Shown here: positions 4,078 through 40,282 of the stretch, in pieces | Position numbering within the stretch: the stretch's first letter is position 1 | How the letters are laid out: every line of letters begins with the position of its first letter | IMG/VR virus record: IMGVR_UViG_3300034102_000073 | Span: 1-55,428 of that record | Strand: one strand, 5' to 3' | Length of the DNA: 55,428 nucleotides | DNA from: a virus | Program-made: the position numbers and the translations under genes | The notes under the pieces: model-generated | The model's database searches: none | Told to the model about the DNA's origin: nothing | Seen by the model: only the letters and a program-made list of their open reading frames with translations

Positions 4078-6981
4078 ATGAACACGCTTGATTTTTTGAA
4101 GCGGGTTCTTCCGTCAGAGGGGTTATATTGTTCATTCACTGTAGTGGGCAAGTACCCAAAACAGGTTCACCACCAGACGATAGAAGAACTTGCTGCTGAA
4201 GTACTGACAGATAGTCAGAAGGGGCACAACACATACTTTGCGATCTCCGCTTTCAATAGCGACGAGAGCAGGGAACAAGCAAACGTCAGAGTCATAAAGA
4301 CATTTGCGCTCGACATCGACTGCGGTGAGGGTAAACCCTACCCATCGTGGAAAGAAGGGCTGCTTGTTTTATCCGACTACATCCGTGAACTGAATCTCCC
4401 CGGCCCGATGATTGTTCGATCAGGCAACGGGCTACATGTTTACTGGACTTTGACTACTGAGATGACGCCACAGGAATGGCGTCCGATTGCTACGGCGTTC
4501 AAGGCTTCTGCTGTTGCCAAGTTCAAAGAACTTGCAGAGAAGCGCGGCATCATATCGCCCACACCGAGTAAACCCTATATCGACCCTGCTGTACCTGCTG
4601 ACCATGCGCGGGTGCTACGTCCTGTTGGAACCGTTAATACCAAAGGTGGCAATACAGTCGCCCTGATTTTCGACGCGCCACCTGTTGACCCACAACACTT
4701 TGCGTCGTTCTTCCCTGTTACCTATGGCTCACCCAGTGAGCCACCACCACGACACGCATCTGGCAGCACATTGCTAGATAACCTAGCAGTCAAACAAGAT
4801 TACCCGCCATCCAATGCTGATGCTGTTCTGAGCAAATGCCAACAGATTAAATGGATGTACGAGAACCGTCACGACAAGACCAAGATAGATGAACCGATAT
4901 GGTATCGGATGTTAGGTGTTGCAGCGTTCTGCCACGACTCCCATGCAGTTGCTATTAAATGGAGCGAAGGTCATCCTGAGTTCGACCCACAAGCAACCAT
5001 AGATAAGATGGAGCAGTGGAAGCAGAAATGTACTGGCCCAACATCATGCGAGAAGATTGAAGAAGTACGCCCCGATGGGTGTAAGGGATGTAAGTTCAAA
5101 GGAAAAGTTTCCTACCCCACACAACTTGGTATTCAGTATCAGGAAGTGCAGATAGCCCCCGACGCGCTAGACACTGCTGCTTACGAAGTGGAGTTGCCCA
5201 AACCATTTAAGAGAACCAACAAAGGCATTAAGGTCAGTATTGATGACGCAGATATTGATGTATGCCCGTTTGATATTTACCCTGTTGGGTACGGCAGAGA
5301 TGAATCACTTGGCTATGAGGTCGTCCGGTATCACTGGAACCGACAACATATTGGCTGGCAACCGCTGAACCTACGCCAAGCATTTCTCACCGACGGTAGC
5401 CGTGAGTTTGCAGGAGCCATTGCAGATCAAGGCATCGTTCTTTTCAACAAGAAACAAACGGAGTACTTCCAATATATGCTGCGCACCTACATGGACAAAC
5501 TGCGGCAGCAGAGAGCCATGACGAACCTCTATTCCACAATGGGATGGAAGCATGACTACACAGAGTTCGTCATGGGTGACACCATTCTGCGCTGCAATAA
5601 AGATGGAACTATCACAGAGGAACAAGTTCTCTTATCCTCTACATCCCAACGCCTAGGGCATGACCTCTACGGTACAAGCGGAAGCCTTGCCGAGTGGCGA
5701 GAGTTCACTCGTATCATGCCGAAGGTCAACTTGTTGGGGCAGATGTTTGCGATAGGCGTCAGCCTATCGTCGCCGTTGTATGCCTTCACAGGACTTAAAT
5801 CCACAACCGTGTCGCTCTACGGGCCGACAGGCTGCGGCAAAACCCTTGCTCAGTTGTGGGGTCAGTCTGTGTGGGGCGTACCTGAGAAGCTGCATTTCGC
5901 TGCCAAGTACACACAGAACGCTGTGTTCGCACGGTTTGGTCTGTACTGCAATATGCCGCTGACCATCGACGAAACCACGATGATGGATGTCAAAGATGTT
6001 GGTGACTTCCTGTACTGGATTTCCCAAGGTCGAGACAAAGCACGACTGAACCGCAATGCGGAGGAACGTGAGTCTAAAGAGTGGCAAGCCCCTGCCATAC
6101 TATCCAACAATACATCTATGGGTTCTAAACTTGTGGCATCCGGGATGGAAACCACAGCGCAGATGGTTCGACTGTTGGAAGTTTCGTTACAAGTCCACCC
6201 GATATTTAAGTCAGGTAGCACCGCAGGTCGAGACATCTATAACTTCATCTCATCTAACTACGGTCATGCAGGTCGAGAGTTCGTGAAGTATCTGTTGCAG
6301 CTTGGGCCTGAAGGTATGAAGGCCATCGTTGATGATGCGTTCAAGACTTTCCCTAAACGCTATCACCACCACTTCACAGGTGAAGAACGCTTTTGGGAAC
6401 AAGCCATTGTACTGGCTGACCTTGCTGTTCGGCTTGCTTACGAGAACAACATCGTGGCGTTTCCACCTGAGGTCATGACGAATTGGATTCTGAATCAGAT
6501 AGGTGCGCTGCGTAAGACAGTCATTGACTATCAGAACGATGGGTTCGATATGTTGACTGAATACCTAAACGAACACGCAAACATGGCGCTGACGGTATGG
6601 CACACAGGTGACACTAAACCTGCTGTTGATATGCAGCGGTTACCCCGTGGTGAAGTACGTGCAAGGTTCGACTGCCACCGTAAAGACCACTCCTCACAGT
6701 TTGACCACGGTACAGTGATGGTTGACCGTACGCACTTCCGTAAATGGCTTGCCATGAAAGGCGTGGACTACCGTGGATTTATACGAGAGATGACTTCTGC
6801 TCAGATTGTCGTAACGCCCAAGTCTAACAAAGCCAGTCTCGGTAAGGACAGCCCAATCAAACTGCCTCAGTCCTACGTGATTGCGCTGAACCTAAGCCAC
6901 CCCCGCCTCAAGGGAATCCTAGAGGACGAGGATATGGCTATCGACAACACATTGCTAGGTCAACTCAAAGTCGTTCAATAA
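4078..6981 (+). CDS. Primase-helicase (AEP-like primase domain plus DUF927-type helicase)
   Basis: A 967-aa two-part replication enzyme. The N-terminal 250 residues look like an archaeo-eukaryotic primase domain: ALDID with D79 and D81, then SGNGLHVYW at 115-123. A Cys cluster (C318, C324, C335, C338) may bind zinc. The C-terminal half is a DUF927-like P-loop helicase: Walker A GPTGCGKT at 582-589, Walker B LTIDET near 628-633, and an Asn-containing ILSNNTS segment as sensor I. It would synthesise primers and unwind DNA at the fork with the family A polymerase encoded at 52799-54676. Its 3' end overlaps the convergent giant virion gene by 7 nt. Confidence 0.88.
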   Translation: MNTLDFLKRVLPSEGLYCSFTVVGKYPKQVHHQTIEELAAEVLTDSQKGHNTYFAISAFNSDESREQANVRVIKTFALDIDCGEGKPYPSWKEGLLVLSDYIRELNLPGPMIVRSGNGLHVYWTLTTEMTPQEWRPIATAFKASAVAKFKELAEKRGIISPTPSKPYIDPAVPADHARVLRPVGTVNTKGGNTVALIFDAPPVDPQHFASFFPVTYGSPSEPPPRHASGSTLLDNLAVKQDYPPSNADAVLSKCQQIKWMYENRHDKTKIDEPIWYRMLGVAAFCHDSHAVAIKWSEGHPEFDPQATIDKMEQWKQKCTGPTSCEKIEEVRPDGCKGCKFKGKVSYPTQLGIQYQEVQIAPDALDTAAYEVELPKPFKRTNKGIKVSIDDADIDVCPFDIYPVGYGRDESLGYEVVRYHWNRQHIGWQPLNLRQAFLTDGSREFAGAIADQGIVLFNKKQTEYFQYMLRTYMDKLRQQRAMTNLYSTMGWKHDYTEFVMGDTILRCNKDGTITEEQVLLSSTSQRLGHDLYGTSGSLAEWREFTRIMPKVNLLGQMFAIGVSLSSPLYAFTGLKSTTVSLYGPTGCGKTLAQLWGQSVWGVPEKLHFAAKYTQNAVFARFGLYCNMPLTIDETTMMDVKDVGDFLYWISQGRDKARLNRNAEERESKEWQAPAILSNNTSMGSKLVASGMETTAQMVRLLEVSLQVHPIFKSGSTAGRDIYNFISSNYGHAGREFVKYLLQLGPEGMKAIVDDAFKTFPKRYHHHFTGEERFWEQAIVLADLAVRLAYENNIVAFPPEVMTNWILNQIGALRKTVIDYQNDGFDMLTEYLNEHANMALTVWHTGDTKPAVDMQRLPRGEVRARFDCHRKDHSSQFDHGTVMVDRTHFRKWLAMKGVDYRGFIREMTSAQIVVTPKSNKASLGKDSPIKLPQSYVIALNLSHPRLKGILEDEDMAIDNTLLGQLKVVQ

Positions 6982-9900
6982 GAAAGAATCTCAGCCGCAG
7001 ACCTAAGGTCGGTACGTGATGCCTTAGGCGCGGTACGGAGATACCGCTGTGTTGCAGGACGGATGGCCTCGGCGTATGCCTTGGCAGCGTTCTCTTGGAA
7101 GTTGGCAATGTAGAGCGGTGTGCCATACGCTGCTCTATTCCAATCTGCTACTGCTGCGTTGATGTCTCTGACTTGATCTGAGTCGCCGGACATACGAGCC
7201 TTAATCCACGCCTGTTGATACCCCGCAGAAATCTCACGCTGGTAGTCTGTCATTCTCCGCGCTGTGCGGATGAACTCGTACTGCTGCGCCGCAGCTACAG
7301 GATAGAAGCCTAAAGCACGGGTTAGATAAGTTCCTGCGGTAAGGTCTTTGGACACCACGTAACCACGGCGATCAATGATCGCACCCGCGCTGTCGTACGC
7401 CAACATGTCGCCAAGTGCGCGACCCATGGTGATTGGGTTTTCCCGCAGTACATCAACCATTGAAATCTTCTCAGAGAACGGTGCTCTAATCGCGTTGGGG
7501 ATGGTAGATGCTACTCCCCACAACATTGACAGCGATGGGCCACCTATCTCCTCAAGCTCTTTGGCTGCATTGGAACCTGCAAGAAGTAGTCCTGTGCCGG
7601 GAACGAAGTTACCGACGGATACCCGTGACGCAATGTCAGCAGGGATGAAGGAGTTCAACACGCCGCGCATGACGTATGGAGAAATCCCCGGTGCGATCTG
7701 GTCGAGGTATTTAGCAACCTCATACCGGACGCTACCTGTGATACCTAGTTTCTGCGCGAGTGTGTCCAATAAGTCCTCGGCGTCCTCTGCAAATGGGAAA
7801 GCCAGCAGACCGCCGAACAGCCAGAGTGAAACAAGCATAGCTACTTTGCCGGGCCGGTCGAGGCGGTTCAACAACTGAATAGTTGTTGTTGGATACACCT
7901 TGTACATATACAAGAAAGACTGCAACCCTGTACGCCACGCAGATGGACGGTTCATCACCGAGTACTCACCAAGTGTGAACTTCAGAGTTTCAACAGCAAA
8001 GGCACGGGCGTCAGTAGTCGCTTCTGCTGGGCTTCTTCCTGCTGCAATAGCGCGGTCGTAAGCCAGACGATAAGCTGCAAGACCTAAGCCTCTGCGTACT
8101 GCTTGCTCTGTGGAGTTGAAAGTCCACATCATGCCATCAAGAAGTTTCTGTCCTGCACCGGAGGTTACTCGACCACGAGCAGTCGCCGTCAGTGCGTTGG
8201 ACTGCGCAGGAATCATCACACCTTCACGGATTTCATCTGCGATGAACTTAGCCTCATGCGATCTCAGACCATACTTAGCTTGCAGCTTAGGGTCTTTCGC
8301 AACAGCGTCATAGAACTCAGCCGTTTCAAATCCGGGGGTATCTTGCCCGATGTTACCAAGTGAAGTCATTGTTGACTTGCGTAGGCCAACTTGGTTTAGA
8401 GCAATACCAAACGCAGCCATAGACTTGGCGAATCCGAATCCGCCACCAAAGGCAGTCTTGGAGTTATAAGTTGCCAGATAAGGGATGCCGTTGGTTACAG
8501 CGCCCACATAGTTCAACGCACCCGTAGCTATAGATAAACCCAGTTGGAACACACTGGTATACGCACGGACAGAGGAAGCGACTTCACCGCTACCAAAGTC
8601 AGACTCGTCCACGTTGCGGTTATTGTTCAGGAAGGCAAGGAGTTGAGCAGCTTCGTTGTAGTACTGGTTAGCCTTCTCGTATGTACCGCCTTCATTGGTC
8701 TTGTTGTACATGAAGGCGTAGCGGTAGTAGTCAACTTTGGCGTAGTGCTTCTCCTCCCTAGTAGCAGTGGGGTTCTTCTCCATTGCTTCCCAGTGTCTAC
8801 GCTTTGTCTCAAGTACCGATTTGCTGCCATTCCATAGCTCGTTGGATGAGCGCAGGTTACGGTTCATGATCTCCGACAAGCGTGGACGGATGATGACCTT
8901 AGCGATTGTGGACGCACGCGCCTCGACATGTTGCATGATAGCTTGCACGCCATCACTGCTGGCCCCCGGTGTGAACTCACGCTTCAAGCGGTTACGCGCA
9001 CGAGCGTTCTGTTTGGTCAACGCAACCACTACGTTTTCCATCTTCACGGGGTTCAGGGTAATACCGAACTGCCGCAAGCCACGGACAAACTCGTTAAGGT
9101 TCAGTTCGAGTGGAGCAGCGATAGAGTTAAGCGCAGCCCCCGGCATTGCGGTAAGTTTAACTTCTTGGATTGTGTACCTGCCAGAAGCCTCATCATAGAC
9201 TTCTGCTTTGTAAGTACGATCCCCGAACAAGTCTTGGTTCAGAGTACGGGCGAACGCTACGGCCTCATCCTTACCCTCGAACTGAGAGTACACCAACATG
9301 TTCTTGTAGTCTTGCTTGAGGTTGACGACTCGTCCCGCTGCGTTAGTTACAACCACACGGACTTGATGATCGCCCTTACGGTTGATCGGGGTATAGCCTG
9401 TAGCCAGAGACTTTTTAGTGAACAGATCGGCGTCATCATTCGCCACTTCAAAGGTAATGATGTCTTTAAGGCGGTTCTGGATTGTGAACTTAGCCTGCTC
9501 ATCCCCTTCAGGGAAAACCAACCGCTGCTTAAAGTCTTTGGCAAAAGCGATAGCGTCATCGGCTACAGTCTTATCGTCAAAGAAACTTGCAAATCGGTCG
9601 TAGTCCATCTGTTCGCCAAGAATGATGGCTTTGTTTACTGCCACGATAAAGTCGTTGGCTTTCTCGATACTAGCCGAGTTCAGCATTGGGTCGCCGTTCT
9701 CGTCATAGGTTTTGTCGGCAGTGTAGAACTCTTTGTACCTACGGTAGATACGCTGGAAAGCCTGACGTTCTGCGGCAGTCAGAGCATACTTACCTTCTGC
9801 GTTTGGTTTAGTGATGTCAGCGATCTCACGGAAGGCCAAGTCTTGATCTTGTAGGAAGCTGCTGTATCTTGCCCACAAGAGTTTGACTTCAACTTCTTTA

Positions 9901-12900
9901 ACGGATTCACGAGCGCGTAGGTAGCCCTTCCAAACTTTGCTATCTTCGGTTAGGTCTTTGATCCCCGGCACGTTGACCTTCTCTTTGACTACTTCGCCTT
10001 TGTCGTTGAGATACTCGACATCATAGGAGTAACCATTTTTAGCTTCGGCGAAGGTCAGCTTACCTAGCTCGAACAGACGATCAACTTCAGTCTGCCCATT
10101 CTCATTTACGGTCAGCGCCAACTGTCCTTTGTCATCGACATAGAACAGCGGGGTTTTACCTAGCTTACGAACGTCACCGACAGTGGCTACCTTATAGCGC
10201 AGTCCACCGTACAGCAACTTGTTGACCTGATCTAGTTCTTCCGTGGTGATGCCACCTACTTCACCAATACCGAGTTTGACTGCGCGATTAAGCAGCACAC
10301 CAAGACGTTCTTTCTCTGTGACCTTGATGTTCATCGCAAGGTCTTTACCGGAATTCAGGAGGTCGTTAATAGCAGACAAGCCTGCGTTCTCACGGGCGCG
10401 GAAGTTGGTCAGGCTAAAGAACTGAGTCACGAACTTGTCTGCCGCAAACGAGAACTTACCGGTCTTATCAATGAAGCGTTGTACTGCCTCGTTGATGGAC
10501 ATTGGAATACCAGCGGCATCGTCCATCATTAGACCAGCCATCAAGTTATCCCTACGTAGGTCGCCTGCCATTGCGAAACGTCCAGACCCGTCAATATCCT
10601 GCCCATGCACCATACTTACCATACGCTGTGCAACATCTTTGGCGTCGAAGAACTGCGAGGTCTGTCCATTGCGGGTGTAAGCACGGGCTTGGTTGACAAA
10701 GAACCTAGCCGTTTCGTCACCGAATTTAATACCCAACTTGTTGAGCGCACCCTTGATAGAGTTCCAGATACGCGCCAGCAGGCTGGAATCCAACTGTGCT
10801 GCAAAGTCCGCGAGGTATTCCTCAGTAGCTTCTGCTTTAGACTGGTCGGTGACCGACATAGCAGCGTCTACATATGACTGAATAGCAGGGCTGAACTTGT
10901 AGATTTGCTCCATCAGAGCGTTGAACTGCTTCTCTCCGATCAGGCTGCGCAGTCCGTTGTGACCAATGGCTTCGTGAGCCAGCACGAAATTCAACTGCTG
11001 CTCAGTTGCTACGCGGTCAGCAAACACAATAACCGTGTCGCCACCAAAGGAGTACGCCACAGCCGATACGTTATCGAAGTCACCTTGCGTACGAGCCGCA
11101 GCAGCACGGGCGTAGAGTTCAGGGTTACGCGCCTTGAGATCAGCTTGATTCTTGTAGATGAATGTACGTGGCTTGACTGCTAGGCGAGACAGGAAATTCG
11201 CCACCAACATCTTGATCTTACCCATTGGCACTGGGTTGGTGATCGGCGTGCCGTCATCACGCTCAAAGCGTCCGGTGTCATCACGGTTGTTAGTGCCATA
11301 GGCGTTCCAATCATCGAGAGAAAACGGCGAACGGTACTCACCCTTGGCTTGGCCTTCCTCAGAAATCTTCACATCGGGATCAACTTCTCCGCGATCTTCT
11401 GCCTCAAAGTTACGTACCTCAGTATCCGATACCTCACGGACATAGACGCGTAGTTTGCCATTGACCACACGGGTCTTTGGAGTACCGTCGTCAAAGTAAG
11501 CAGAGATAGGATTGCCGCCCGGTGTTTCCCAGTCCTCAAGTTCAGCAGCCTGTACGTCTGCATACAGTTTCTTCAGCGCATTGATGGCGTCTTGCTGCTG
11601 CTTAGTGGTGTACGCCATACGGTTGGAGTTCAAACGCTGAATCTCGTCGAACAACTTAGTGGCAGGATTGCGTTTGGTGAAGTCGTTAGCCCCGTTGTCT
11701 TTTGCTTCTGTACCACCACGCTTGAGTTTCTTCAGCGTGTCCTTAGGGAAGTTGTCAGGACGTAGCTGCCCACCATCAAGATACAGTTGGGCGTCGTTTA
11801 CGCTGATACCAGTAAGGCGGGTCTTGATCTGCGGGAGTAATTCGTTTTCCTGCGCAAACTTAAACCATGGCTTTTCCATGCCTTTGTTTTCACCACGGGT
11901 GTACACGGCTTCGATAGTCTGAAGGGTATTGACCTCGTTCAGCACTATTTGTTTGATGAGCGCACGCTCAGTACTGCTCCAGTTCTTACTAGACAGATAG
12001 TCACGAGCGCGGGCTACAGCTTCAGCAAGATTAGTTTCTTCCGGCGAGAAGTATGCGTATCTAACCACAGTGGTTAGCGCATCAGCTTTACCTCTGATCG
12101 TCGTAGCTTCCTCGACGTTATTGATCTCATCGTTGACTACGCTGAGCGGAGTTATCTCGCCTTTGAGTAGACCTTCTTCTTTCTGCTCGTCAATGTATGA
12201 CTCAGTTAGAAGATTGGCCTCAGCCATAGTGGCCTTGCCACGAGTGACAAGGTTGCGCCACGACTGCTGGTGAACTGGGTTTAGCTTGTCGAACGTCGGT
12301 GCGTTATCAGGCTTTTTATCCTCCCACTGTTCTTCAGCAGTGACAGGCTCAGGCTCAGCTTTTTTTGGCTCGGCCTTTTTCTCAACCTTACCTTTCTTCA
12401 AGGTAGCAGCTTTTGGAGCAGGAACAATCTCTTGCTCTTTGCCAGCCTTGACTACATCTTTCCGAACAGCTTCTTGCTTATCTTCTTGCTTCTTTGCTTT
12501 GAGGGCTTGACCTTTTCCGGCAGTTTTCGGTTGTCCGGTGTCTCCTTCTCCCACCTTTTCGCCATCTCTGGTTCGTTTGCGTGCATCCAGCGGCGTTGGC
12601 TTTCGCTCTTGAACGGCATTTGTTTCCTCCCCTTTATAGACAGTTCGGACTGTCGTGTCTCCAATTTGGTCTAACAAAAATGCACGGTGATGCCCGTCGT
12701 TAATATAAAAAGAACCATCGGGCAATGCTGTTACGACTATTGGGTTTTGCGCAGTAAAGTCACGCAGACGTTGTTGTGCTTCGGGGTCTGCCTTAAACGC
12801 ATCGACCATCTCCCGCATGGTCATATATTCATCAATGTTCTTCATCCCCGCGACATTAGTCAGTATGTCGAATACTTGGGATTCAGTAACACCCTGAGTA

Positions 12901-15551
12901 CCAATCGCACCATTAGGACGCTTTATATTTGCAATAAGAAAATCAAACGATCCTTCTGCTGGCTTTACTTCTTGTTTCTTTCCTCGCTTCAAACCCCGCA
13001 TATTTTGCGCAGCACGCGCCGCCGCAATAGTATTTGCCGTGACTGGTGCGCCTGTCGGTGGAATCTGGGTAGTGCCTTGCTGCGTAGTCGGTACAACTTG
13101 CTGCCGCGTGCCTGCACTCTTTAGCGCTGCTACTGTAGGCTCGCCTTTTTGCGTGAACAACGCCATCTGTCCCATACGACGAAGATCGGCAGGAGTAACG
13201 GGTGTTACAGGTGCAACAGGCTCAGGTAATTGTGTACCCACACCACGGCGCAAACCTTCGGCACGAGAAGGACGAGGCAAATCACGGGGTCTAAATAACG
13301 GCAACTGCTGAGGGGTACGCTCACGAGGCGCAGTCATCGGCAGTGAAGGTGTCTGCGGTGTGCTTTCCTGCGGGAAAGCCAAATCCAGTTGGCGCTGGTT
13401 CTGTGCTGCTTGCGCTAAACGAGCTATCTCTGCCTCGCGCTGCGCAGCGGCAGCAGCCTCAGCTTGCTGAAACGCAGCCTGCCGTGCCTGTTGGTCTTGC
13501 AACTGCTGGAGTTGACCAGCCATCTGATTGTTGAACGGAGCCTGAGGTGCAGGTGGAGCGAACTGTAATGCACCCTGACGAGGATCAGAAGTAGGACTAC
13601 CAAGTGGCTGCGCATTAGGGATAATACCGAGTTGCCGTGCATAAGCGATTGCCTCAGGGTCTTCATTCAGTAAACCAATCTGAAGGTCTTTGACGCTCTG
13701 ATACCGAACTTGCCCACCCATGCGCGATGCCAATTCCTGCGCAGAGATGCTACCGCCAAATACATCGAGTACACCTTGCGAACCTTGCGTTGCACCGGGC
13801 GGGACGTTACCTTGTTGCCGTAGCATTTGGTCGGGGTAAGCCACGCCTTGCGGGGTGACCATCATTGTCGGGCCACCGACAGGACTTACCGGCGACACAG
13901 GGCCACCTAGCATTGGCGGTGGCGGTGGCGGCAGGGCAGGGAATTCCCTAGTAAATGCACCACCCTGCATAGGTGCAGCGGGCGGCGTTGGCGGCGGGCT
14001 AGTCGGAACAACAGCCCCGCCAGTAGTAGGCGGAGATGGGTCTTTGCCGCTGTCTAGAAGGTTTACTGCTAACTTGTTGTCACGAAGGTTGCTCAGGCCA
14101 CCAATGGGGCCACCGACACCAAAGCCAGCGGCAAAGGCGTTCAGCAATCGGCGACGCCCTTCAGGAGAATCAATGTTTACGTCTTTGTTGGCGTAGATAC
14201 CGAGCGATTCTTGGAAGGCTTCAGTCGCACCTTCTGCCAAACCACCAACGGCTGTACCCGTGGCGAGCCGCCGCCCGACTTCAAGGCTCTTACCTCCAAG
14301 GGTTTTTATATCACCTAGTGCGCCGCGTGCCATCCATTGAGGAGTACCACCCACACCGAAGATACGACTTGCAGCCAAGAACTCAGCGGCAGATTCAGCC
14401 AGACCGTAGGGGATGCCCAAAGCCACAGCCATCAGGCGATCACCTTCACCGTCGCCGCTCTCTAGGGTTTCTCCGTAGATGTCTGAGATACCAGTGGCGA
14501 TGTTCTGTCCAGTGGTTGCAAGCGTAGCCCCGCCAATCTGACCGGCACGCCTGTAGTACTGAGACAGAGTGTTCTCCGCAGCTTGACGTAGTGCAGCAGC
14601 TTCTTGCTGGATAGCAAGCCGTTCTGCTTGGTTCTTTGCTTGTGCAGCCAGCACCGCATCGTAGGGAATCAGGGCGCGAGAAGCCGATGGGTTCTTAATT
14701 GCCGCTGCTGCGGTAATACCAGCAGCTTCTTTGAGAAGTTTTGTTTCCGCTGCATCAAGAGCTTCACCGCGCAGATGCTTCTGCGCTGCCAGCATCACAC
14801 CCTTCTTGAATGTCTCCTTACCAGTCAGCGCCATAATTGCGCCGCCTGTAGCAGTTACAGGGTTCGGGCCACCACCGGCTGCGCCACCTGCGAGGAAGCC
14901 GACAGCACCAGTCACAATAGACTCAATAAGATTCGGGCCTTGTTGGGCAAGGTTAGCGGCGAACCAGTCGAACAACCCACGGTCACCGGATGTAACACCC
15001 ATGCCGTAGTCTTTCTTGTCGCCGATACCTGTGAACTCCCGCTGGTATACCTGATTACGGGACAAGTCTTGGATTTGCTGTTCGACTACGTTCCTGCCAA
15101 CCTTCTCCATACCAAGGAACTGTAGGCCGTAGCCACCAAGCAACTGAAGATTATCAACTCCGATACCGAAGTTCTTCTTCATCAACTGCCATGTAGTTGG
15201 GTCAGCGATGCTCTTAGCATGGGATAGATAGCCACTCACCGATACAGGACGCCAATCACCATCAGGCAATGGAGTACGCCCTCCATCAGGGCGCATATTC
15301 TTCAGTGACTCTACAACCGCTGTGTCGTTGTCAGCGTCGAACGTAGTACCGTTGACAAACAATCTGTTGGTTGACGGGCTGTATGCGACCGTAGCAGCAG
15401 GAATAAATGGTTGGAAAGCCGGAGCTTGAGGCCGTGGAGCAGCAGCATCAAGAGCGGCAGAATACCGCCCAAGATCAATACCCCCCATACCACTGCCCGG
15501 TTGGGGCGTCAGTCCGTAAGGAAGTCCTACCGTCAGTGCTTGGTCAGCCAT
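6975..15551 (-). CDS. Giant polyvalent virion protein with metallopeptidase domain
   Basis: A 2,858-aa protein, the largest in the genome and last in the virion operon, in the position of T7 gp16. Residues 1-500 are Ala/Gly-rich with hydrophobic stretches; 500-850 are Pro/Gln-rich linker. A ParB/Srx-like segment holds DGHHR at 952-956. Residues 978-1034 are a Lys/Glu/Ala-rich linker. A zincin motif HEAIGH lies at 1526-1531, followed by a Glu-rich EATEEYLAD segment that could supply the third ligand, as in polyvalent-protein metallopeptidases. The long helical C-terminus has a probable membrane segment near 2570 and resembles large-polyvalent-protein C-terminal modules. It is probably packaged and injected with the DNA. 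The injection role is inferred from order and domain mix. A second gene is nested in another frame at 12452-12619. Confidence 0.85.
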   Translation of the reverse strand: MADQALTVGLPYGLTPQPGSGMGGIDLGRYSAALDAAAPRPQAPAFQPFIPAATVAYSPSTNRLFVNGTTFDADNDTAVVESLKNMRPDGGRTPLPDGDWRPVSVSGYLSHAKSIADPTTWQLMKKNFGIGVDNLQLLGGYGLQFLGMEKVGRNVVEQQIQDLSRNQVYQREFTGIGDKKDYGMGVTSGDRGLFDWFAANLAQQGPNLIESIVTGAVGFLAGGAAGGGPNPVTATGGAIMALTGKETFKKGVMLAAQKHLRGEALDAAETKLLKEAAGITAAAAIKNPSASRALIPYDAVLAAQAKNQAERLAIQQEAAALRQAAENTLSQYYRRAGQIGGATLATTGQNIATGISDIYGETLESGDGEGDRLMAVALGIPYGLAESAAEFLAASRIFGVGGTPQWMARGALGDIKTLGGKSLEVGRRLATGTAVGGLAEGATEAFQESLGIYANKDVNIDSPEGRRRLLNAFAAGFGVGGPIGGLSNLRDNKLAVNLLDSGKDPSPPTTGGAVVPTSPPPTPPAAPMQGGAFTREFPALPPPPPPMLGGPVSPVSPVGGPTMMVTPQGVAYPDQMLRQQGNVPPGATQGSQGVLDVFGGSISAQELASRMGGQVRYQSVKDLQIGLLNEDPEAIAYARQLGIIPNAQPLGSPTSDPRQGALQFAPPAPQAPFNNQMAGQLQQLQDQQARQAAFQQAEAAAAAQREAEIARLAQAAQNQRQLDLAFPQESTPQTPSLPMTAPRERTPQQLPLFRPRDLPRPSRAEGLRRGVGTQLPEPVAPVTPVTPADLRRMGQMALFTQKGEPTVAALKSAGTRQQVVPTTQQGTTQIPPTGAPVTANTIAAARAAQNMRGLKRGKKQEVKPAEGSFDFLIANIKRPNGAIGTQGVTESQVFDILTNVAGMKNIDEYMTMREMVDAFKADPEAQQRLRDFTAQNPIVVTALPDGSFYINDGHHRAFLLDQIGDTTVRTVYKGEETNAVQERKPTPLDARKRTRDGEKVGEGDTGQPKTAGKGQALKAKKQEDKQEAVRKDVVKAGKEQEIVPAPKAATLKKGKVEKKAEPKKAEPEPVTAEEQWEDKKPDNAPTFDKLNPVHQQSWRNLVTRGKATMAEANLLTESYIDEQKEEGLLKGEITPLSVVNDEINNVEEATTIRGKADALTTVVRYAYFSPEETNLAEAVARARDYLSSKNWSSTERALIKQIVLNEVNTLQTIEAVYTRGENKGMEKPWFKFAQENELLPQIKTRLTGISVNDAQLYLDGGQLRPDNFPKDTLKKLKRGGTEAKDNGANDFTKRNPATKLFDEIQRLNSNRMAYTTKQQQDAINALKKLYADVQAAELEDWETPGGNPISAYFDDGTPKTRVVNGKLRVYVREVSDTEVRNFEAEDRGEVDPDVKISEEGQAKGEYRSPFSLDDWNAYGTNNRDDTGRFERDDGTPITNPVPMGKIKMLVANFLSRLAVKPRTFIYKNQADLKARNPELYARAAAARTQGDFDNVSAVAYSFGGDTVIVFADRVATEQQLNFVLAHEAIGHNGLRSLIGEKQFNALMEQIYKFSPAIQSYVDAAMSVTDQSKAEATEEYLADFAAQLDSSLLARIWNSIKGALNKLGIKFGDETARFFVNQARAYTRNGQTSQFFDAKDVAQRMVSMVHGQDIDGSGRFAMAGDLRRDNLMAGLMMDDAAGIPMSINEAVQRFIDKTGKFSFAADKFVTQFFSLTNFRARENAGLSAINDLLNSGKDLAMNIKVTEKERLGVLLNRAVKLGIGEVGGITTEELDQVNKLLYGGLRYKVATVGDVRKLGKTPLFYVDDKGQLALTVNENGQTEVDRLFELGKLTFAEAKNGYSYDVEYLNDKGEVVKEKVNVPGIKDLTEDSKVWKGYLRARESVKEVEVKLLWARYSSFLQDQDLAFREIADITKPNAEGKYALTAAERQAFQRIYRRYKEFYTADKTYDENGDPMLNSASIEKANDFIVAVNKAIILGEQMDYDRFASFFDDKTVADDAIAFAKDFKQRLVFPEGDEQAKFTIQNRLKDIITFEVANDDADLFTKKSLATGYTPINRKGDHQVRVVVTNAAGRVVNLKQDYKNMLVYSQFEGKDEAVAFARTLNQDLFGDRTYKAEVYDEASGRYTIQEVKLTAMPGAALNSIAAPLELNLNEFVRGLRQFGITLNPVKMENVVVALTKQNARARNRLKREFTPGASSDGVQAIMQHVEARASTIAKVIIRPRLSEIMNRNLRSSNELWNGSKSVLETKRRHWEAMEKNPTATREEKHYAKVDYYRYAFMYNKTNEGGTYEKANQYYNEAAQLLAFLNNNRNVDESDFGSGEVASSVRAYTSVFQLGLSIATGALNYVGAVTNGIPYLATYNSKTAFGGGFGFAKSMAAFGIALNQVGLRKSTMTSLGNIGQDTPGFETAEFYDAVAKDPKLQAKYGLRSHEAKFIADEIREGVMIPAQSNALTATARGRVTSGAGQKLLDGMMWTFNSTEQAVRRGLGLAAYRLAYDRAIAAGRSPAEATTDARAFAVETLKFTLGEYSVMNRPSAWRTGLQSFLYMYKVYPTTTIQLLNRLDRPGKVAMLVSLWLFGGLLAFPFAEDAEDLLDTLAQKLGITGSVRYEVAKYLDQIAPGISPYVMRGVLNSFIPADIASRVSVGNFVPGTGLLLAGSNAAKELEEIGGPSLSMLWGVASTIPNAIRAPFSEKISMVDVLRENPITMGRALGDMLAYDSAGAIIDRRGYVVSKDLTAGTYLTRALGFYPVAAAQQYEFIRTARRMTDYQREISAGYQQAWIKARMSGDSDQVRDINAAVADWNRAAYGTPLYIANFQENAAKAYAEAIRPATQRYLRTAPKASRTDLRSAAEILSY
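12452..12619 (-). CDS. Nested small basic phage protein in alternative frame of the giant gene
   Basis: A 55-aa ORF lying wholly inside the giant gene, in another frame on the same strand. It begins MPFKSESQRRWMHAN and continues with EMAKRWEKETP and KLPEK. This is the pattern of a widespread small phage protein family (MPFKS-x-QRR, AKRW, KLPEK) that I recognise from other phage genomes. The start has an excellent ribosome site: GGGGAGGAAACAAATG. The host gene encodes only a Lys/Glu/Ala-rich linker here (residues 978-1034), which tolerates overprinting. Family function is unknown; small size and basic character suggest nucleic acid or virion binding. Confidence 0.78.
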   Translation of the reverse strand: MPFKSESQRRWMHANEPEMAKRWEKETPDNRKLPEKVKPSKQRSKKISKKLFGKM

Positions 15552-15563
15552 TTATGCCTCTAC

Positions 15564-18461
15564 TTATTTTCTATTGACATTTAGTCCGCGATTCATTTGG
15601 GTAGGTAGAACAGTTATGTTCTCCGCTGAAAACTTACCGTCTGTACCCATCTTAGCCGGGTTCATATCGAACCTAGCAACATAGTTTCCATCTTTTGAGA
15701 AGGCCACCAAGCTTTCACCGCCGTCAGGGTTGATAACTTTCTGAGGGCTATCGAATCCTTGCATCTCCATAGCCTTCTTAATAAGCTCCGTCTGGCTCTT
15801 AAAGGATTCTACTTTTAGTGAATTGATTCCTTTTACCAATTCGACCTGAACCAACTTAGCGGTTTCTAACTGCGTCTCAAACTGTTTACTATACAGCGCA
15901 GCTTCAGCATCCTGCTTTCTCTGCCGGTATGACTGGTCAATAGTCCGCATAGCCATGTCTGCAAGTGTAGCCTTATCAAGTACATTGGCGACACGTAACT
16001 CTCCGTCTACCGGCATATACAGATTAAATTTACCATCTGTTCGAGGTTGAATACGAATTTCCTGTCCAGAATACCAAGACCAGATACGCTCAAGCCGCTG
16101 GGGATTGTTTGCATACTGGAAGTCATGTAGTGCTTGGTACGTGATAGACATACCAAGATTGTTGTCCACTCCTTCCAAACCTTTCTGGATAGCTTGGTCA
16201 GTGGTAACCATGTCTTGCTGATACTTCAACCTAGATTGGTTGATCTGCCCGTCCAGAGTACGAATCTGATCTAGCTTACTCTGAGCTTCTTTAATCAACC
16301 CATTACGGCGTGCAACTTCAGCTTCCATAGCCAACTGCTGACGTTGCTGCGAAGCAAGTCCCAATTCATTTTTATAGAATTGTTCGATGGCAGCACGAGA
16401 TTGCTGGTACTGCTGTATAGCCGTGTTACGCTGATAGAGCAGTTTGTTTGTCTCGAAGTTGTGCTGCTCAGGAGTCATCGAGAGCGCAACGCGCACTCGC
16501 TTCAAAACCTCATCAGACTCCAAATCACCAGCGGGTTTAGATACTCCAGCAACTTGCGCAGGAGCTTCTGCCGCTGGCTGATCTTGGCGCACACCCGGTG
16601 AAACTTGAACATTCTGGGCATCGGGGCGAACTACATAACGACCAGTGTTGTCTACCTGAACTCTAGCTGTACGTCGTCCATACAAATCTTGATACTGCTT
16701 CGGCTGCAAGTGTAGCCCCATCGGGTCTTTAGCGACTGATGGATACAAGTCCATAAGCCTGCCGGTAAACTCGACGTTGTTTGTTTGCGCCAATTGCGAT
16801 AGGAAATCGTTCTGCCCAGTTGTCGGATTCTTTTGTGTCCCCGGCCCAGTTCCGAAGATCACAGGAACACCGCCTTTAGATTTGATAAAGGCGATCTGTT
16901 GTTCTACAGCAGTACGCTCAGCAGGGTTGTTAGGCAAACCTGTACCAAGATAAATGGTCACGCCGTTAAGATCATTCTTAGCCGCGTATTCTTTCAGCAT
17001 TTTCAGGACAGCCGTAGGGCTTGCACCTGTTTTGTAGGAGCCATCTAACTTGTTTGCCTTCGCAAACCCTTCAGCCAGACTATCACCTATAGCTATGACC
17101 TTACCACTTGGGGCAGCCGCAGCTTGCTTGGTGGTTTGTGGAGCAGCTTGTGGCACACCAGTTTTTGCAAGCTGGTTATATTGCGCGATGTAGTTTTTGG
17201 TTTCAGTAGGTAGCGCATTGGGATTGCTACCCTTCTTGATCCAGTTGTCTACATTGCCCGGCCCCCAGTTATATGCAGCCAATGCGTAGTAGACATTGTT
17301 ATCGTAACGATTCAACATCGCTGCAAAATAGTCCCGCCCAAACCGACGGTTCTCCTCAGGAGAATTATTTTGCAGAGGCTTAACACCGAAGCCGGGGTCT
17401 TTACCAGTCGCACGCATGATCTGCATTGCGCCCTGTGCGCCTTTAGGACTGACCGCGTTAACATTTCCACGACTTTCAATGTACTCAATGATCGGTACAA
17501 CCTGTTCTACTACCGAGGAAGTTTTAGTTGCTGCTCGACGCGAGTCACGAATAGCGCCTTCTTTTTTGAACGCGTTTACAAATCCAACAGGGTCAATATC
17601 TGCTATCGGTAAAGCGTTAGGGTTCTGGTTGAAGTAGTCAATAGCTTCTTTGCTATTGAACCAGTCCAGTGCCTCAGTAATAGCCGCACGTTTGTTTGCT
17701 TCCTGCGCGGTATCAGTGAAGTATCCTTTGATCGCGCCGAACACATTACCCGCTAGGCCGTAGTCACCCGTAGCAAGTTTGTTGCGGATATTTTCACGGG
17801 CACGATTAACTGCTAACTGTGCGTTTTGTGTAGCTGCATTGCGGTTAAATCCGGCGAGATTCGGGTCAACCTTTGTATACCCCGGAATGTTGGCATCAAT
17901 CTCTCCTACACGGCTTCTACCATTAGGAATGAAATCCGGTACGGTTAGTGAAGTGCCTTTACCCTGTGCATTTGCGTAGATTTTTTCACGGATAGCAGCA
18001 GGAAATTTACCATTCTGTGCTTCGTAATTTTGTAGGTACGTAGTCGCATCTATTGGTACTTGGTCAGAACCAGCAACCGCAGGTTCAGGAACACGATTTA
18101 CAGGCTGAGTAGCGTCTTTCCAAGTACTGACTTTGCCATCAGACGCAGGAGCGGGCACTGGAACCGGGGCAGGTTCGCGCACTACATAGGGAGTACGGAA
18201 GGTAGAAGCATCCCCCGGCATGGGTTTGTTCGTAACGTCAAACACCGAGGGCGGCATTGTGAAACCTACCGGCTGTAGCCCCGCTACATTATCTTTAACT
18301 GTAGGTAAGCGTTGCTGTAGCTCCGCACGTTGCCGCTCTGCGCGATAGAAGTCGTCAGTTTCTTGAACCGCACCCAACATCTGCGGGATACGGCGCATGG
18401 TTTGAAACTGCGCATCTTCATTCGCAGGGATTGATCTAAAGAACGCATCAAGTCCAGCCAT
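15564..18461 (-). CDS. Internal virion protein: lytic transglycosylase plus SGNH hydrolase
   Basis: A 965-aa ejection protein. Residues about 320-420 are a soluble lytic transglycosylase (Slt/goose-lysozyme-like) domain: catalytic Glu329 in YIESRGN, then GAQGAMQIM and ALAAYNWGPGNV. Residues about 450-600 are an SGNH/GDSL hydrolase: IGDSLAEG with Ser461 as nucleophile and GLHL with His584. The usual Asp three residues before the His is Met581 here, though Asp579 is nearby. The C-terminal third is coiled-coil rich. T7 gp16 carries a transglycosylase, so local peptidoglycan opening during DNA entry is a good inference. The SGNH part could de-esterify cell wall or surface sugars. The ATG lies 12 nt after the stop of the 486-aa gene. 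Confidence 0.87.
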   Translation of the reverse strand: MAGLDAFFRSIPANEDAQFQTMRRIPQMLGAVQETDDFYRAERQRAELQQRLPTVKDNVAGLQPVGFTMPPSVFDVTNKPMPGDASTFRTPYVVREPAPVPVPAPASDGKVSTWKDATQPVNRVPEPAVAGSDQVPIDATTYLQNYEAQNGKFPAAIREKIYANAQGKGTSLTVPDFIPNGRSRVGEIDANIPGYTKVDPNLAGFNRNAATQNAQLAVNRARENIRNKLATGDYGLAGNVFGAIKGYFTDTAQEANKRAAITEALDWFNSKEAIDYFNQNPNALPIADIDPVGFVNAFKKEGAIRDSRRAATKTSSVVEQVVPIIEYIESRGNVNAVSPKGAQGAMQIMRATGKDPGFGVKPLQNNSPEENRRFGRDYFAAMLNRYDNNVYYALAAYNWGPGNVDNWIKKGSNPNALPTETKNYIAQYNQLAKTGVPQAAPQTTKQAAAAPSGKVIAIGDSLAEGFAKANKLDGSYKTGASPTAVLKMLKEYAAKNDLNGVTIYLGTGLPNNPAERTAVEQQIAFIKSKGGVPVIFGTGPGTQKNPTTGQNDFLSQLAQTNNVEFTGRLMDLYPSVAKDPMGLHLQPKQYQDLYGRRTARVQVDNTGRYVVRPDAQNVQVSPGVRQDQPAAEAPAQVAGVSKPAGDLESDEVLKRVRVALSMTPEQHNFETNKLLYQRNTAIQQYQQSRAAIEQFYKNELGLASQQRQQLAMEAEVARRNGLIKEAQSKLDQIRTLDGQINQSRLKYQQDMVTTDQAIQKGLEGVDNNLGMSITYQALHDFQYANNPQRLERIWSWYSGQEIRIQPRTDGKFNLYMPVDGELRVANVLDKATLADMAMRTIDQSYRQRKQDAEAALYSKQFETQLETAKLVQVELVKGINSLKVESFKSQTELIKKAMEMQGFDSPQKVINPDGGESLVAFSKDGNYVARFDMNPAKMGTDGKFSAENITVLPTQMNRGLNVNRK

Positions 18462-21437: not shown

Positions 21438-21776
21438 CTATGATTTAAGTTGGTTAATCAGAGCGTTCAGCACATCCTTGATGTATGCTACATCCCCGAT
21501 CAGTGTTTGTACATCCACAATAAGTTTTGCATAGTCCTCCGCACTGGCGACATTCACACCGCTTATTGTAAACCCAGCACCCGTTGCTGTCACTTGTCGT
21601 ATAGACAAATCACCTATAGGCTGGACTCCTACCTGCCCAGCGATTAGGGCTTGATACCCAGTGTTACCCCGCTGTCCAGTTAGGATTTCTACGTTCTGCT
21701 TTACGTTGTTCAGGAATTGAAATTGCCATTCAGGTACTCCTACCTGTGGCACGGCGGGTAATGCTGCGTAGCTCAT
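21438..21776 (-). CDS. Small putative tail/virion protein
   Basis: A 112-aa protein of unknown function. The middle has a beta-rich segment and the C-terminus is a heptad-like helix (AEDYAKLIVDVQTLIGDVAYIKDVLNALI), probably a trimeric coiled coil as in tail or fibre-attachment proteins. Its ATG overlaps the stop of the nozzle-like gene (TAATG), so it is translationally coupled to that tail gene. Confidence 0.65.
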   Translation of the reverse strand: MSYAALPAVPQVGVPEWQFQFLNNVKQNVEILTGQRGNTGYQALIAGQVGVQPIGDLSIRQVTATGAGFTISGVNVASAEDYAKLIVDVQTLIGDVAYIKDVLNALINQLKS

Positions 21777-24160
21777 TATGCTGTCCTTAATCCGAAGGGA
21801 GTCTCGCCCACATGGATAGCCCGAATACGAGCCGAGCCAGCCACAGAGACTTCAAATGTGTCTGACCTATATCCAGCCGGGAGCCGGAAAATTTCTGAGC
21901 TATCTACAGTCACATCACAGACCAATTCTTTATTAGCCCATAACTTAAACGTCACAGGGAACGCGCCTGTAATCGACCGTAGGTAAATAGTCAGATCAGG
22001 GTCACCGTTCAGCATCATGCTATTGACTGTACCTAGTACGTCTACATGCGCCGAAGTATTTGGATCAACATAATCTACAGGGCCGTTCACCGTACCTAGT
22101 TGCGGGACTAGTGACCAAATCTCTGCGTTATGGGGTGCTACTGTAGCGTTATATGCGACGATTGCTTCTGTCTCCTCAGAAGGTACAGAATAATCAGCAA
22201 CTACACGCGCTGCTCCCAAGTTCAGATAGTCTTTAGTGACAATGACTTTCGACTTCCACTCTAGCGGTAGCAACGGCTGGGAGTCGTCGTCCCATTTAGA
22301 CAGCGAGCCGGACGTATCCGAGATGTAGTAAAACACGTTGGTACGGGAGTCATAGTGCGCAGCGCTAAACACAACTGGCGCGGTGATAAAAAATCCCCCA
22401 ACCTTATCTTCGCGCTCGAAGATAAATGAGCCTGCGGAATGTGACGCAAAGTACTTACCTGCGTAAAACGCTGCCACAAGGGTAGTTGGATTAAGATCAC
22501 GTTCCCATGTATCCCAGTCGTGAACAAGTTTGGTTACGAGATCAATACCCGCCGAAGGGTTATAAACACCGATACCACCATACGTAGGGAACACGACACC
22601 GTATCCAATATTCACAATACCGCGTTTAGATGTACATGGGTACGGAGCATCGATACGTGCGTACGACATATTTGCCGGTGTGTTTCCGCTAACCAAGAAT
22701 GGGTACGATTCAGTCAGCACTAATACCGAACCTGCAATCGGAGATATACCGATAATTCGAGAGTCAAAAACTAGTCTGTACTTAGCAGGCCACGCCCAAG
22801 GTTTGTTCGGTTCGGAAAAGCACAACTCATTCTCTGTGAAGCCGCAGAGAATGTTGTTCTGAATAGACGATAGCCCCTGCATATTCGCCGGAGGCGCATC
22901 GTAATCCTGTGATGCCAAGGCTATACCTAGACCATCTGGATCGTAGTCGTCAATAAACGTAGTGGACTCATAGTACCGCGATACGTTTGTCTCAGGTTCA
23001 GAAATATCCCAGTAAAGCGTACCTGCTGAACAAGCAGTATTTGCTTTATCCGATCCATTCTTTACGTAGCTAAACTCATATTCCCCATCTACGTCAGTCA
23101 CTATACCGTCTGTGATATTAAATGTGGTATCAGGCGTGCCGCCAAAGGCGATACCCGTTACTTTTATCTTATCCCCCACAAGTAAATTATGTGGGGTAGC
23201 AGTAGTAAGCGTAACGGTATTAGAGGTACGAGAAGCGAAATCTACGTCAACCGGGAACCATACCGTGCGCAAACGGAAATAATCTGTGCCGCTACTTGAA
23301 GTGATCGTGCGATACAGCCTAAAGCCAGAGATATACGTATTACCCGCTGGCTTTGCCGTAGGCAAGTTACCTACGGTGACCACTTGTCCCTCTTTAAGAT
23401 AATCCGTAACAGATGGGTCAGACGGTATAGACTCCTCTCCCCACCCTGTCAACCACGTATAAACGTAGTTGCGAGTAATCGTATTACCAGCAAGATTGAC
23501 TTTTCCAGATGTATCCGCAGTTGTGGACACCGCGTCGCCGGAATTAAAGTAGGTAAACGATGTTGAGTTCGTTACTGTAATTCGTACGTTAGTGGCGTTA
23601 AAAGTTTTACCAGTAGTAGTGGTAAACCCGGACACGGTTACAACCTGCCCGGTTTTTAAATTGTGTGCTGCGCCTGTGACAATCGTGGCTATGTTGCCGG
23701 AGTCACGAGCGTATGAAGCAGTTGTTGCAGCAGTGAATGAAGTGACTACTGTAGTTGGGATAGTCTCAGGCAGAGGCAGACCTAGGTCGTACGCAGTGAC
23801 GGGGTAAGGCCCAGCACCTTGGATAGCAAGATCATAGTTGGTGACTTTAGGGACGCCATCACCACTGAAGTAAATACGTTGTTCTTCTTCCGTCAGCGCA
23901 GTAGTAACCGCCACATCTACGTCGGTTAGCCAAGATAACCATTTAAGATCATCCGGGTCAGCAGGATTCCGCATAGGGTAAATCGCCCTAACAACACCGT
24001 TGCGACTTACGTTATCCACGATGGTCGGTTGGTGGTACGGAATCAGATCGCCAGAGTAGACCTTAGCGTTAGACGCAATCTGTGCGGCAGCATCCGGCAG
24101 CAACTCCGGGCTGATCTTCGGAGCCGCCCCTAAAAACTTGCTGAGTTTAATTGCTGCCAT
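21776..24160 (-). CDS. Tail tubular protein B / nozzle-like protein
   Basis: A 794-aa beta-rich protein. The N-terminus (AIKLSKFLGAAPKISPELLP then a YSGDLIPYHQP segment) matches the start of podoviral tail-nozzle or tubular B proteins, which describe removal of default values along a list-like beta-propeller. The middle has Thr/Val/Ser-rich Ig-like repeats. T7 gp12 is 794 aa, the same length, and forms the tail nozzle. It stands just upstream of the ejection series, as gp12 does in T7. Assignment is by layout and context, not by a catalytic motif. Confidence 0.72.
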   Translation of the reverse strand: MAAIKLSKFLGAAPKISPELLPDAAAQIASNAKVYSGDLIPYHQPTIVDNVSRNGVVRAIYPMRNPADPDDLKWLSWLTDVDVAVTTALTEEEQRIYFSGDGVPKVTNYDLAIQGAGPYPVTAYDLGLPLPETIPTTVVTSFTAATTASYARDSGNIATIVTGAAHNLKTGQVVTVSGFTTTTGKTFNATNVRITVTNSTSFTYFNSGDAVSTTADTSGKVNLAGNTITRNYVYTWLTGWGEESIPSDPSVTDYLKEGQVVTVGNLPTAKPAGNTYISGFRLYRTITSSSGTDYFRLRTVWFPVDVDFASRTSNTVTLTTATPHNLLVGDKIKVTGIAFGGTPDTTFNITDGIVTDVDGEYEFSYVKNGSDKANTACSAGTLYWDISEPETNVSRYYESTTFIDDYDPDGLGIALASQDYDAPPANMQGLSSIQNNILCGFTENELCFSEPNKPWAWPAKYRLVFDSRIIGISPIAGSVLVLTESYPFLVSGNTPANMSYARIDAPYPCTSKRGIVNIGYGVVFPTYGGIGVYNPSAGIDLVTKLVHDWDTWERDLNPTTLVAAFYAGKYFASHSAGSFIFEREDKVGGFFITAPVVFSAAHYDSRTNVFYYISDTSGSLSKWDDDSQPLLPLEWKSKVIVTKDYLNLGAARVVADYSVPSEETEAIVAYNATVAPHNAEIWSLVPQLGTVNGPVDYVDPNTSAHVDVLGTVNSMMLNGDPDLTIYLRSITGAFPVTFKLWANKELVCDVTVDSSEIFRLPAGYRSDTFEVSVAGSARIRAIHVGETPFGLRTA

Positions 24161-35774: not shown

Positions 35775-36680
35775 TTACAGGGTGATAACAGCCTGAGTCA
35801 ACGCTTCAGGTTTCACAACCTTGTAGCCATACACTTGCAGACCACGGATGATGTTGCCGAACGTGGTTTCAGAGCGGATGGTTTCCATGTTGGTCATTTG
35901 CGAAGCAAATGTGAAACCCATCTTGTGACCGCCGATAACGCTGAACTTACCAGAAGACACGTTCAGGTTGTGGCTCACATAGAGGGTGAAGCGGTCGATC
36001 ATGCCGAGACGACCATTGCGCAGCGGAGTCATGCTGTCACCGGTCAAAGACGCATCCTTCAGGTCAGAACGCTTGATGTAACCAGCCATCTTAGCCGGGA
36101 TAACCAAGAAACGATCTTGCTCAGGAGCGTTGGCTTCGTCAAGAACAGTACCCATATCAACGATCAAGTCGATGACGTTGGTTTTGTCGATGGCAAGAGC
36201 CGAACCGGTAGTGCCAAGGTCGATGTCACCAGAGATACGACCAGCAGTTGCGCCTTTGTTCAAGGCGGAAATGTCTGGAAGGATGTCGGTGAGAACGCGC
36301 TGGTCAATCTTGATCTTCATACGCTCGGAAGCGTCTTTAGACCATTGATCCATCAGGTTGATGTCCGACTGAACCTTGTCCACATCATCTTCGATACAGG
36401 CAAAATACTCGCCCTTGTCGATCACGAGTTGGAGTTTTGGCTTGTCAGGATTTTCAACCGACAGCGTTTGACCTTTGACATAGGTCTTGATGGTGATCTC
36501 AGGAGTGGTACGGATATTGACCGTATCACCGTGCTGACGAATCTCGCCTTCGTAATCAGTATTGGAAATAGCAGCCAACACAGTTGCGTCGTAGAAATTC
36601 TCGATCAGTTTGCCCGACCAGATTTCGGGAATGAAATTGCCGCTGTAGTTAGGGCGGCCACCTGCGTTAGGAAAAGACAT
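35775..36680 (-). CDS. Major capsid protein
   Basis: A 301-aa capsid protein of the HK97-fold group, P22/N4-like in its short form. Visible: FIPEIWSGKLIENFYDATVL near residue 17, a DTVNIRTTPEITIKTYVKG beta segment, and the SKDASERMKIKIDQRVL helix (spine helix), followed by a domain ending AYGYKVVKPEAL-like strands. It assembles the shell around the scaffold encoded just upstream. Position after portal and scaffold and the flanking hairpins support the call. Confidence 0.88.
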   Translation of the reverse strand: MSFPNAGGRPNYSGNFIPEIWSGKLIENFYDATVLAAISNTDYEGEIRQHGDTVNIRTTPEITIKTYVKGQTLSVENPDKPKLQLVIDKGEYFACIEDDVDKVQSDINLMDQWSKDASERMKIKIDQRVLTDILPDISALNKGATAGRISGDIDLGTTGSALAIDKTNVIDLIVDMGTVLDEANAPEQDRFLVIPAKMAGYIKRSDLKDASLTGDSMTPLRNGRLGMIDRFTLYVSHNLNVSSGKFSVIGGHKMGFTFASQMTNMETIRSETTFGNIIRGLQVYGYKVVKPEALTQAVITL

Positions 36681-37755: not shown

Positions 37756-38007
37756 CTATCGGTGTGCGTTAAAAGAATTTTGGGGCGAGGATGAATCCTT
37801 TGCCGCCAGATCAGGGGCATCTTTGACGAGTTTGTAAATCTCGCCCAATACCTGACACCGCCCCTGTTGGAGTGCCGGGTTGTTTACTGCCTGCGGCAGT
37901 TGTTCTAGCTCGTGCATACGCCAGTCTTTCAGAAAGTCCAGAATCTCTGGATACTGTCTGACTGTGACAGCGAACGCTTTGATAACTTTTGGATCGGGGC
38001 GGATCAT
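37756..38007 (-). CDS. Small helical protein between portal and scaffold
   Basis: An 83-aa helical protein: FAVTVRQYPEILDFLKDWR and ALQQGRCQVLGEIYKLVKD. Proteins of this length and pattern occur between portal and scaffold in many podoviruses. The ATG overlaps the portal stop (ATGA). No function known; a role in head assembly is inferred from position. Confidence 0.72.
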   Translation of the reverse strand: MIRPDPKVIKAFAVTVRQYPEILDFLKDWRMHELEQLPQAVNNPALQQGRCQVLGEIYKLVKDAPDLAAKDSSSPQNSFNAHR

Positions 38008-40052: not shown

Positions 40053-40282
40053 CAAGATTCCTTCTTGTACTTAAACAGATCGCGCTTACCGACTAGCTTT
40101 CTGGGTGTAATGTCGGTGGCTCCTAGCTCTGCGACTCGTGGTTTAGGAGCTTCAGGCTCAGGCATCGGTTCTTCTTCAGGAACGTACCCACCCTCCGCAT
40201 AGCCTTTAGCTTGCGGGCGGTATGGCTTGCCCATCTTCGGGTTATCCGAGTAGCAAGTCGAGGGTTTTCCTTTTCCGTTCAT
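40052..40282 (-). CDS. Small Pro/Glu/Lys-rich protein
   Basis: A 76-aa protein with a basic N-terminus (GKPYRPQAKGYAEGGYVP), a Pro/Glu centre and a Lys-rich C-terminus (RKLVGKRDLFKYKK). The GYAEGGYVP segment is like the GYKKGGKVP part of the protein at 25854-26036. AGGAGGAG stands 4 nt before the ATG. It is translationally coupled to the portal gene and follows the terminator of the terminase gene. Unknown function. Confidence 0.7.
   Translation of the reverse strand: MNGKGKPSTCYSDNPKMGKPYRPQAKGYAEGGYVPEEEPMPEPEAPKPRVAELGATDITPRKLVGKRDLFKYKKES

Follow-up and report, generated by a model that had tools for sequence, protein, structure and literature searches.

A small phage gene nested in another frame of a giant gene, and its probable origin by capture

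Can a reading frame of 55 codons that lies wholly inside a much longer gene be a gene in its own right, and how would it have come there? The locus that raises the question belongs to a viral contig of 55,428 bases, analysed here over its whole length (the window), which encodes a large terminase, an SU10-type portal, a capsid protein, two internal virion proteins and a giant protein. The features concerned are the following.

12452..12619, minus strand: nested gene, 55 codons plus stop (MPFKS...FGKM), for a small basic two-helix protein of family 1
12620..12634, minus strand: ribosome-binding region of the nested gene, AAGGGGAGGAAACAA, with GGGGAGG at 12626-12632
12453..12620, minus strand: host-frame reading of the nested gene, residues 978-1033 of the giant, disordered linker NAVQERKPTPLDARK...
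12635..13001, minus strand: domain segment immediately upstream of the nested gene, with a DGHHR motif, ParB/sulfiredoxin-like by eye only
6975..15551, minus strand: giant host ORF of 2858 aa that closes the internal-virion-protein block and matches phrog_11358 at its C-terminus (E=3.8e-34)
15564..18461, minus strand: internal virion protein with a transglycosylase/endolysin domain, adjoining the giant
21776..24160, minus strand: internal virion protein, phrog_511
35775..36680, minus strand: major capsid protein, phrog_267
38004..40055, minus strand: portal protein, SU10-type

The initial annotation had reported a 55-codon ORF inside the giant, on the same strand and in another frame. Its coordinates are confirmed exactly, the sequence it gave (GGGGAGGAAACAAATG) is exact, and the host text over the ORF (NAVQERKPTPLDARKRTRDGEKVGEGDTGQPKTAGKGQ...) is of low complexity, as it described. 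On comparative evidence the ORF appears to be a real, selected gene; its translation and function are inferred, in the absence of transcript, ribosome or proteome data.

The nested frame and its host gene

The minus strand from 12619 to 12452 runs from ATG to TAG and reads MPFKSESQRRWMHANEPEMAKRWEKETPDNRKLPEKVKPSKQRSKKISKKLFGKM. This ORF is entirely contained in the giant (6975-15551), whose codons begin 1 nt ahead of the nested codons. The GGAGG core of a Shine-Dalgarno sequence (SD) stands 6 nt from the nested ATG, with a dG of -10.4, and none of the 69 other out-of-frame ATGs of the giant has one as strong. In-frame internal starts occur in phage genes, e.g. T7 gene 4B, and this SD could likewise drive the synthesis of a C-terminal part of the giant instead of the nested protein. 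However, ATG, GTG and TTG are absent from the host frame from -58 to +65 of the nested ATG, so the SD is not positioned to serve the giant; with its core at 6 nt from the nested ATG, we regard such a start as practically ruled out.

The small protein matches phrog_1375 weakly (E=0.0027). This PHROG, of unknown function, is the only one matched by family 1 (E<=0.01 for 28 of 48 members, 2e-6 at best). Searches of Pfam and NCBIfam gave no significant match and a sequence search of the PDB gave none, while a fold search against viral models returned only small, mostly uncharacterised phage proteins, at E values of at least 0.013. The AlphaFold2 model of family 1 has two short helices and a flexible basic tail.

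The giant comes last in a block composed of the phrog_511 internal virion protein, the transglycosylase protein and the giant itself, and so meets the positional criterion for a T7 gp16-like protein. From this position we infer that it is probably an ejected virion protein. A Pfam search of the giant found no domain above threshold. A HExxGH motif (HEAIGH), of the zincin-like metallopeptidase type, was recognised by eye in the giant (6975-15551) at FVLAHEAIGHNG, without a Pfam match. A ParB identity was considered for the segment at 12635..13001, and a PDB search gave it no significant support. Elsewhere in the window, positions 29007-30944 encode a tail-fibre-like protein whose C-terminal part carries repeats like those of the regulator of chromosome condensation (RCC1).

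Homologues and selection on both frames

Two IMG/VR scans with the small protein and a few annotated phage records provided the homologue set. The homologues whose absence, according to the initial annotation, would have told against the gene do exist: 122 distinct MP[FYL]xS..Q loci were found, 41 of them wholly nested in a long same-strand ORF of either 1,261-3,576 aa or about 400 aa. All 41 nested copies have the same relative frame, and none the other; L086, an upstream extension of a terminase-like ORF, was excluded from this count. The remaining copies are standalone genes or the N-terminal part of a longer protein. In L043, L055, L057, L059 and L061, longer proteins of 252-747 aa that are not otherwise related begin with the MPFKS segment, as if with a tag or targeting module.

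BLAST separates the host proteins into several groups. One host is the gene of about 400 aa, located between a portal gene (phrog_6547) and a structural-protein gene (phrog_13704) in L035, L037, L051, L052, L129 and their relatives; there the nested gene is close to the 5' end. Among phage records, nested copies are found in Podoviridae sp. ctfjg026 and in Flavobacterium elemoviruses, where the host gene is annotated as 'structural protein' (in MT497017, MPFKSKAQMKACYSQDNPKWDCKKW... is nested in a structural protein of 3694 aa), and two more lie on contigs of metagenome-assembled bacterial genomes. Each of the 28 nested records examined holds exactly one family-1 copy; many records are incomplete, which qualifies this count and the exclusion counts given below. 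An SD is present at the nested start in all nine family-1 loci from SD-using genomes (dG -5.1 to -10.9), and genomes whose ordinary genes lack an SD have nested starts that likewise lack one. Thus the presence of an SD at nested starts tracks each genome's own habit.

In 27 pairs of nested relatives, which are not independent, divergence within the overlap is 13.9, 8.6 and 28.5% at nested codon positions 1, 2 and 3, against 34.7, 26.2 and 46.0% at host codon positions 1, 2 and 3 in the host flanks. The overlaps are islands of conservation, in which the substitution pattern follows the nested frame, opposite to that of the host. The same is seen when the window is compared with L002, its nearest relative: the overlap has three differences, each of them silent in the nested frame and host-changing, whereas 51 of 60 differences in the next 1,800 bases downstream fall at host third positions. 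The comparison of synonymous sites in relatives, proposed in the initial annotation as a check, came out in favour of the gene, these sites being constrained. Host residues are constrained too, at the Pro2 codon and at codon 10. The Pro2 codon is CCA or CCG in 22 of 22 nested clusters as compared to 24 of 44 standalone clusters (p=5e-5), and the last base of codon 10 is G in 18/22 versus 16/44 (p=6e-4). Both contrasts are significant by clusters, whether or not they reflect a function of the host peptide. GC3 is 0.71 in the nested set and 0.52 in the standalone set, a difference that can exaggerate some of the contrasts in codon choice.

An island of DNA conservation could also reflect a non-coding constraint, such as a regulatory or packaging element in which the ORF is incidental. 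Against this, the differences pile up at nested third positions, standalone homologues conserve the protein and not the codons, and the nested starts have SDs appropriate to their genomes; we consider a non-coding cause very improbable. The window ORF lies wholly inside an other-frame gene, has its own start signal and shows purifying selection on the nested frame while the host frame remains open, and it meets in these respects the criteria for an embedded gene.

Other small genes in the linkers and the frame of nesting

Relatives of the window giant without MPFKS exist (L273 and L275), so family 1 is not essential to the giant as such. In both, the same linker encodes, in the same frame, a small protein with no relation to family 1. 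That of L275, MPLKSGKSNKVVSSNVQKIVDDW...KIGTSRPKSKKQAVRQAVA, belongs to phrog_2423 (E=2.9e-8) and defines family 2 (MPLKSGKS), also predicted to form two helices. Thirteen of the 55 distinct family-2 loci are nested, all 13 in the same frame and all 13 with an SD, and their host giants include homologues of the window giant (36-41% identical); the host frame is closed in the 42 standalone copies. A tblastn search in phages with the L275 protein gave no match, and the family-2 consensus query matched one phage. Nesting of family 2 in giants was recorded in L278-L289, L293, L312, L313 and L315.

Family 2 was not found in 27 of 28 nested family-1 records, the last (G020) giving one weak partial match, and family 1 was not found in any of the 14 family-2 records. 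As controls, the family-2 model recovered its two positive controls and the family-1 model its targets. The two families are mutually exclusive in the records as observed, within the incompleteness noted above.

Scanning the giants for further SD-led nested ORFs gave mostly noise-like results and revealed a family 3, MENCxCKxxPGWExFQSKAEQ... (MENCxCK..PGWEQFQSKAEQ...), found only nested (24/24 loci). It usually has an SD and lies mostly upstream of family 1 within the same stretch; therefore some giants hold two nested genes. Its sites are L058:4903, L112:8702, L265:3892, L271:3883 and L358-L381. In L374, L376 and L377, giants with a nested family 3, family 1 was not found in the sequence stretch examined.

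Could the host frame be open by accident? When the window protein was recoded at random with synonymous codons, according to the codon usage of the standalone copies, the host frame was open in 5e-5 of trials and the other shifted frame in 0.51; the means over the 22 nested clusters are 0.0056 and 0.24 respectively. Real standalone family-1 clusters have the host frame open in 5 of 44 cases and the other frame in 37 of 44. The frame always kept open in nested copies is the one that is hard to keep open.

In the converse search the query was the host-frame peptide by itself, and the best 80 of its 170 candidates, those examined here, represent 47 distinct loci. An MPF[KR]S ORF of at least 36 codons is kept in 47/47 of these distinct loci, with the caveat that the first residue of the search pattern partly encodes the nested ATG. 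For families 1 and 2, the host-frame reading is almost without Cys, Trp and aromatics, rich in E, Q, G, D, T, N, V and A, and near neutral or acidic in charge. The other shifted frame is rich in Cys and Trp, strongly basic and interrupted by about two stops per gene. We infer that the frame of nesting is constant because a linker can bear the host-frame reading and hardly the other.

Origin, possible role and known systems

The explanation that we retain, with considerable confidence, makes the 55-codon ORF a functional gene. It would belong to an old family of phage proteins that are small and basic, and would have been captured into the linker of the giant, its shifted frame having become that linker. 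The small gene would have been inserted between two modules of the giant virion-protein gene, and the giant would now read its one-base-shifted frame as a linker, tolerated presumably for its acidic or neutral, disordered character, free of Cys, Trp and aromatics. The small gene is probably the older partner.

Capture is favoured, and was perhaps repeated, because nested and after-stop variants exist, because a module edge coincides with the gene and because the tree is intermingled. One family of giants has the small gene either inside, near residue 600 (L120, L143, L134), or immediately past the giant's stop (L153, L161), and the giants of L153 and L161 have no host-frame peptide. Between the window and L002, a domain segment of 367 bases (12635..13001) is replaced by an unrelated one (MORN-like by eye), with flanks 89% and 97% identical; the right edge of the swapped segment is exactly the SD region of the nested gene, whose letters (12620..12634) are the same in L002 and mark the exact upstream edge of the homology. 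The downstream module has therefore kept the nested gene together with its SD. Finally, nested copies are mixed with standalone ones in the tree of the small protein, where supported branches force at least six changes of the giant-nested label (on 53 columns only).

The initial annotation had left two origins open, overprinting and the capture of a separate gene when two ORFs fused. The capture, with the alternative frame as linker, stands as the better fit: the small gene occurs standalone where the host frame is closed, and the host peptide was never found without the small gene among the best 80 of 170 candidates. A fusion of two ORFs is not demonstrated, since a search for an unfused ancestor, with both modules and the small gene separate, found none. 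De novo overprinting would make the giant's linker the older sequence, with the small ORF arising inside it and later escaping to standalone sites. Family 3, nested in all its loci, may have had this origin. For the window gene it seems improbable: families 1 and 2 are mostly standalone with the host frame closed, full-length homologous giants whose gene is elsewhere lack the peptide, and nested and standalone copies are mixed in a tree that, although short in alignment, forces several changes on supported branches. The capture could also be real and incidental, the small gene being an accessory passenger unlinked to the giant or to head function. The varied neighbourhoods of the standalone copies would suit a passenger; its being the sole copy, its strong protein conservation, the mutual exclusion with family 2 and the repeated placement in giants or in portal-MCP intervals would not, and we judge a passenger unlikely, if less so than overprinting.

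Having retained capture, we may ask what the gene does. From sequence alone, ribosomes would initiate at the internal SD on the giant's late mRNA, and the small protein would be made alongside the giant, probably in excess of it. In phages 023Pt_psg01 and DSL-LC04, standalone genes of both families occur between portal and GroES-like, scaffold or capsid genes, and in many contigs the gene next after the portal gene is one of family 2; the initial annotation's remark that such proteins normally sit at a locus of their own among structural genes is true of many copies. A factor of head or portal assembly, or a co-packaged DNA-contacting factor, is a possibility that we infer only tentatively, because many standalone copies of families 1 and 2 are located between portal and scaffold/capsid or directly after a giant, and because nested copies lie in giants or in a gene at the scaffold position. 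The portal inference is weakened by standalone family-1 copies near tail-sheath, primase/ribonucleotide-reductase and terminase genes. More generally, we lean slightly towards the idea of a nested-gene slot: giant ejection-protein genes of podovirus-like phages would repeatedly capture, exchange and sometimes stack unrelated small virion or assembly genes, always in the frame that reads as a harmless linker, so that a partner and the giant come from one gene.

Dozens of distantly related phages show the same arrangement, either with this gene or with one of two small genes unrelated to it; standard annotation is therefore missing a whole class of genes. In its record the nested gene is the only copy of a widespread small family, one that has an unrelated, interchangeable substitute, and it is unannotated even in cultured phages such as the Flavobacterium elemoviruses. 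It also offers a worked example of how the shifted frame of a gene turns into a linker in a protein, and of why one frame is preferred. A literature search for 'MPFKS' or for nested genes in such giants found nothing in the papers covered, which is no proof of absence.

The Phage Annotation Guide describes embedded genes as rare in Caudoviricetes, citing the lambda lysis cassette, and urges annotators to great caution (PMC8785237). Contrasting with this supposed rarity, the present embedded gene has clear selection in dozens of lineages. The giant resembles the polyvalent proteins (Iyer et al. 2017, PMC5512222) in being very large, built of several modules, encoded among virion genes and presumably injected, but differs from them in having no Pfam domain at threshold; the word 'overlapping' is absent from the text of that paper, and the two uses of 'nested' do not, in their passages, concern genes. 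Family 2 (phrog_2423) is nested, with an SD, in homologous giants, where it occupies the same linker in the same frame; its sequence (MPLKSGKS...) is unrelated, and it is a positional analogue, not a homologue. The closest parallel in form is Rz/Rz1 of phage lambda, also a complete small gene with its own start in another frame of a larger phage gene. The host gene of Rz1, however, encodes its functional partner and is of similar size, whereas the host here is a giant virion-protein gene, the small genes are interchangeable and unrelated, and the family also exists standalone. Embedded genes are known, as in Rz/Rz1; recurrent, interchangeable ones in the linkers of giants appear to be new.
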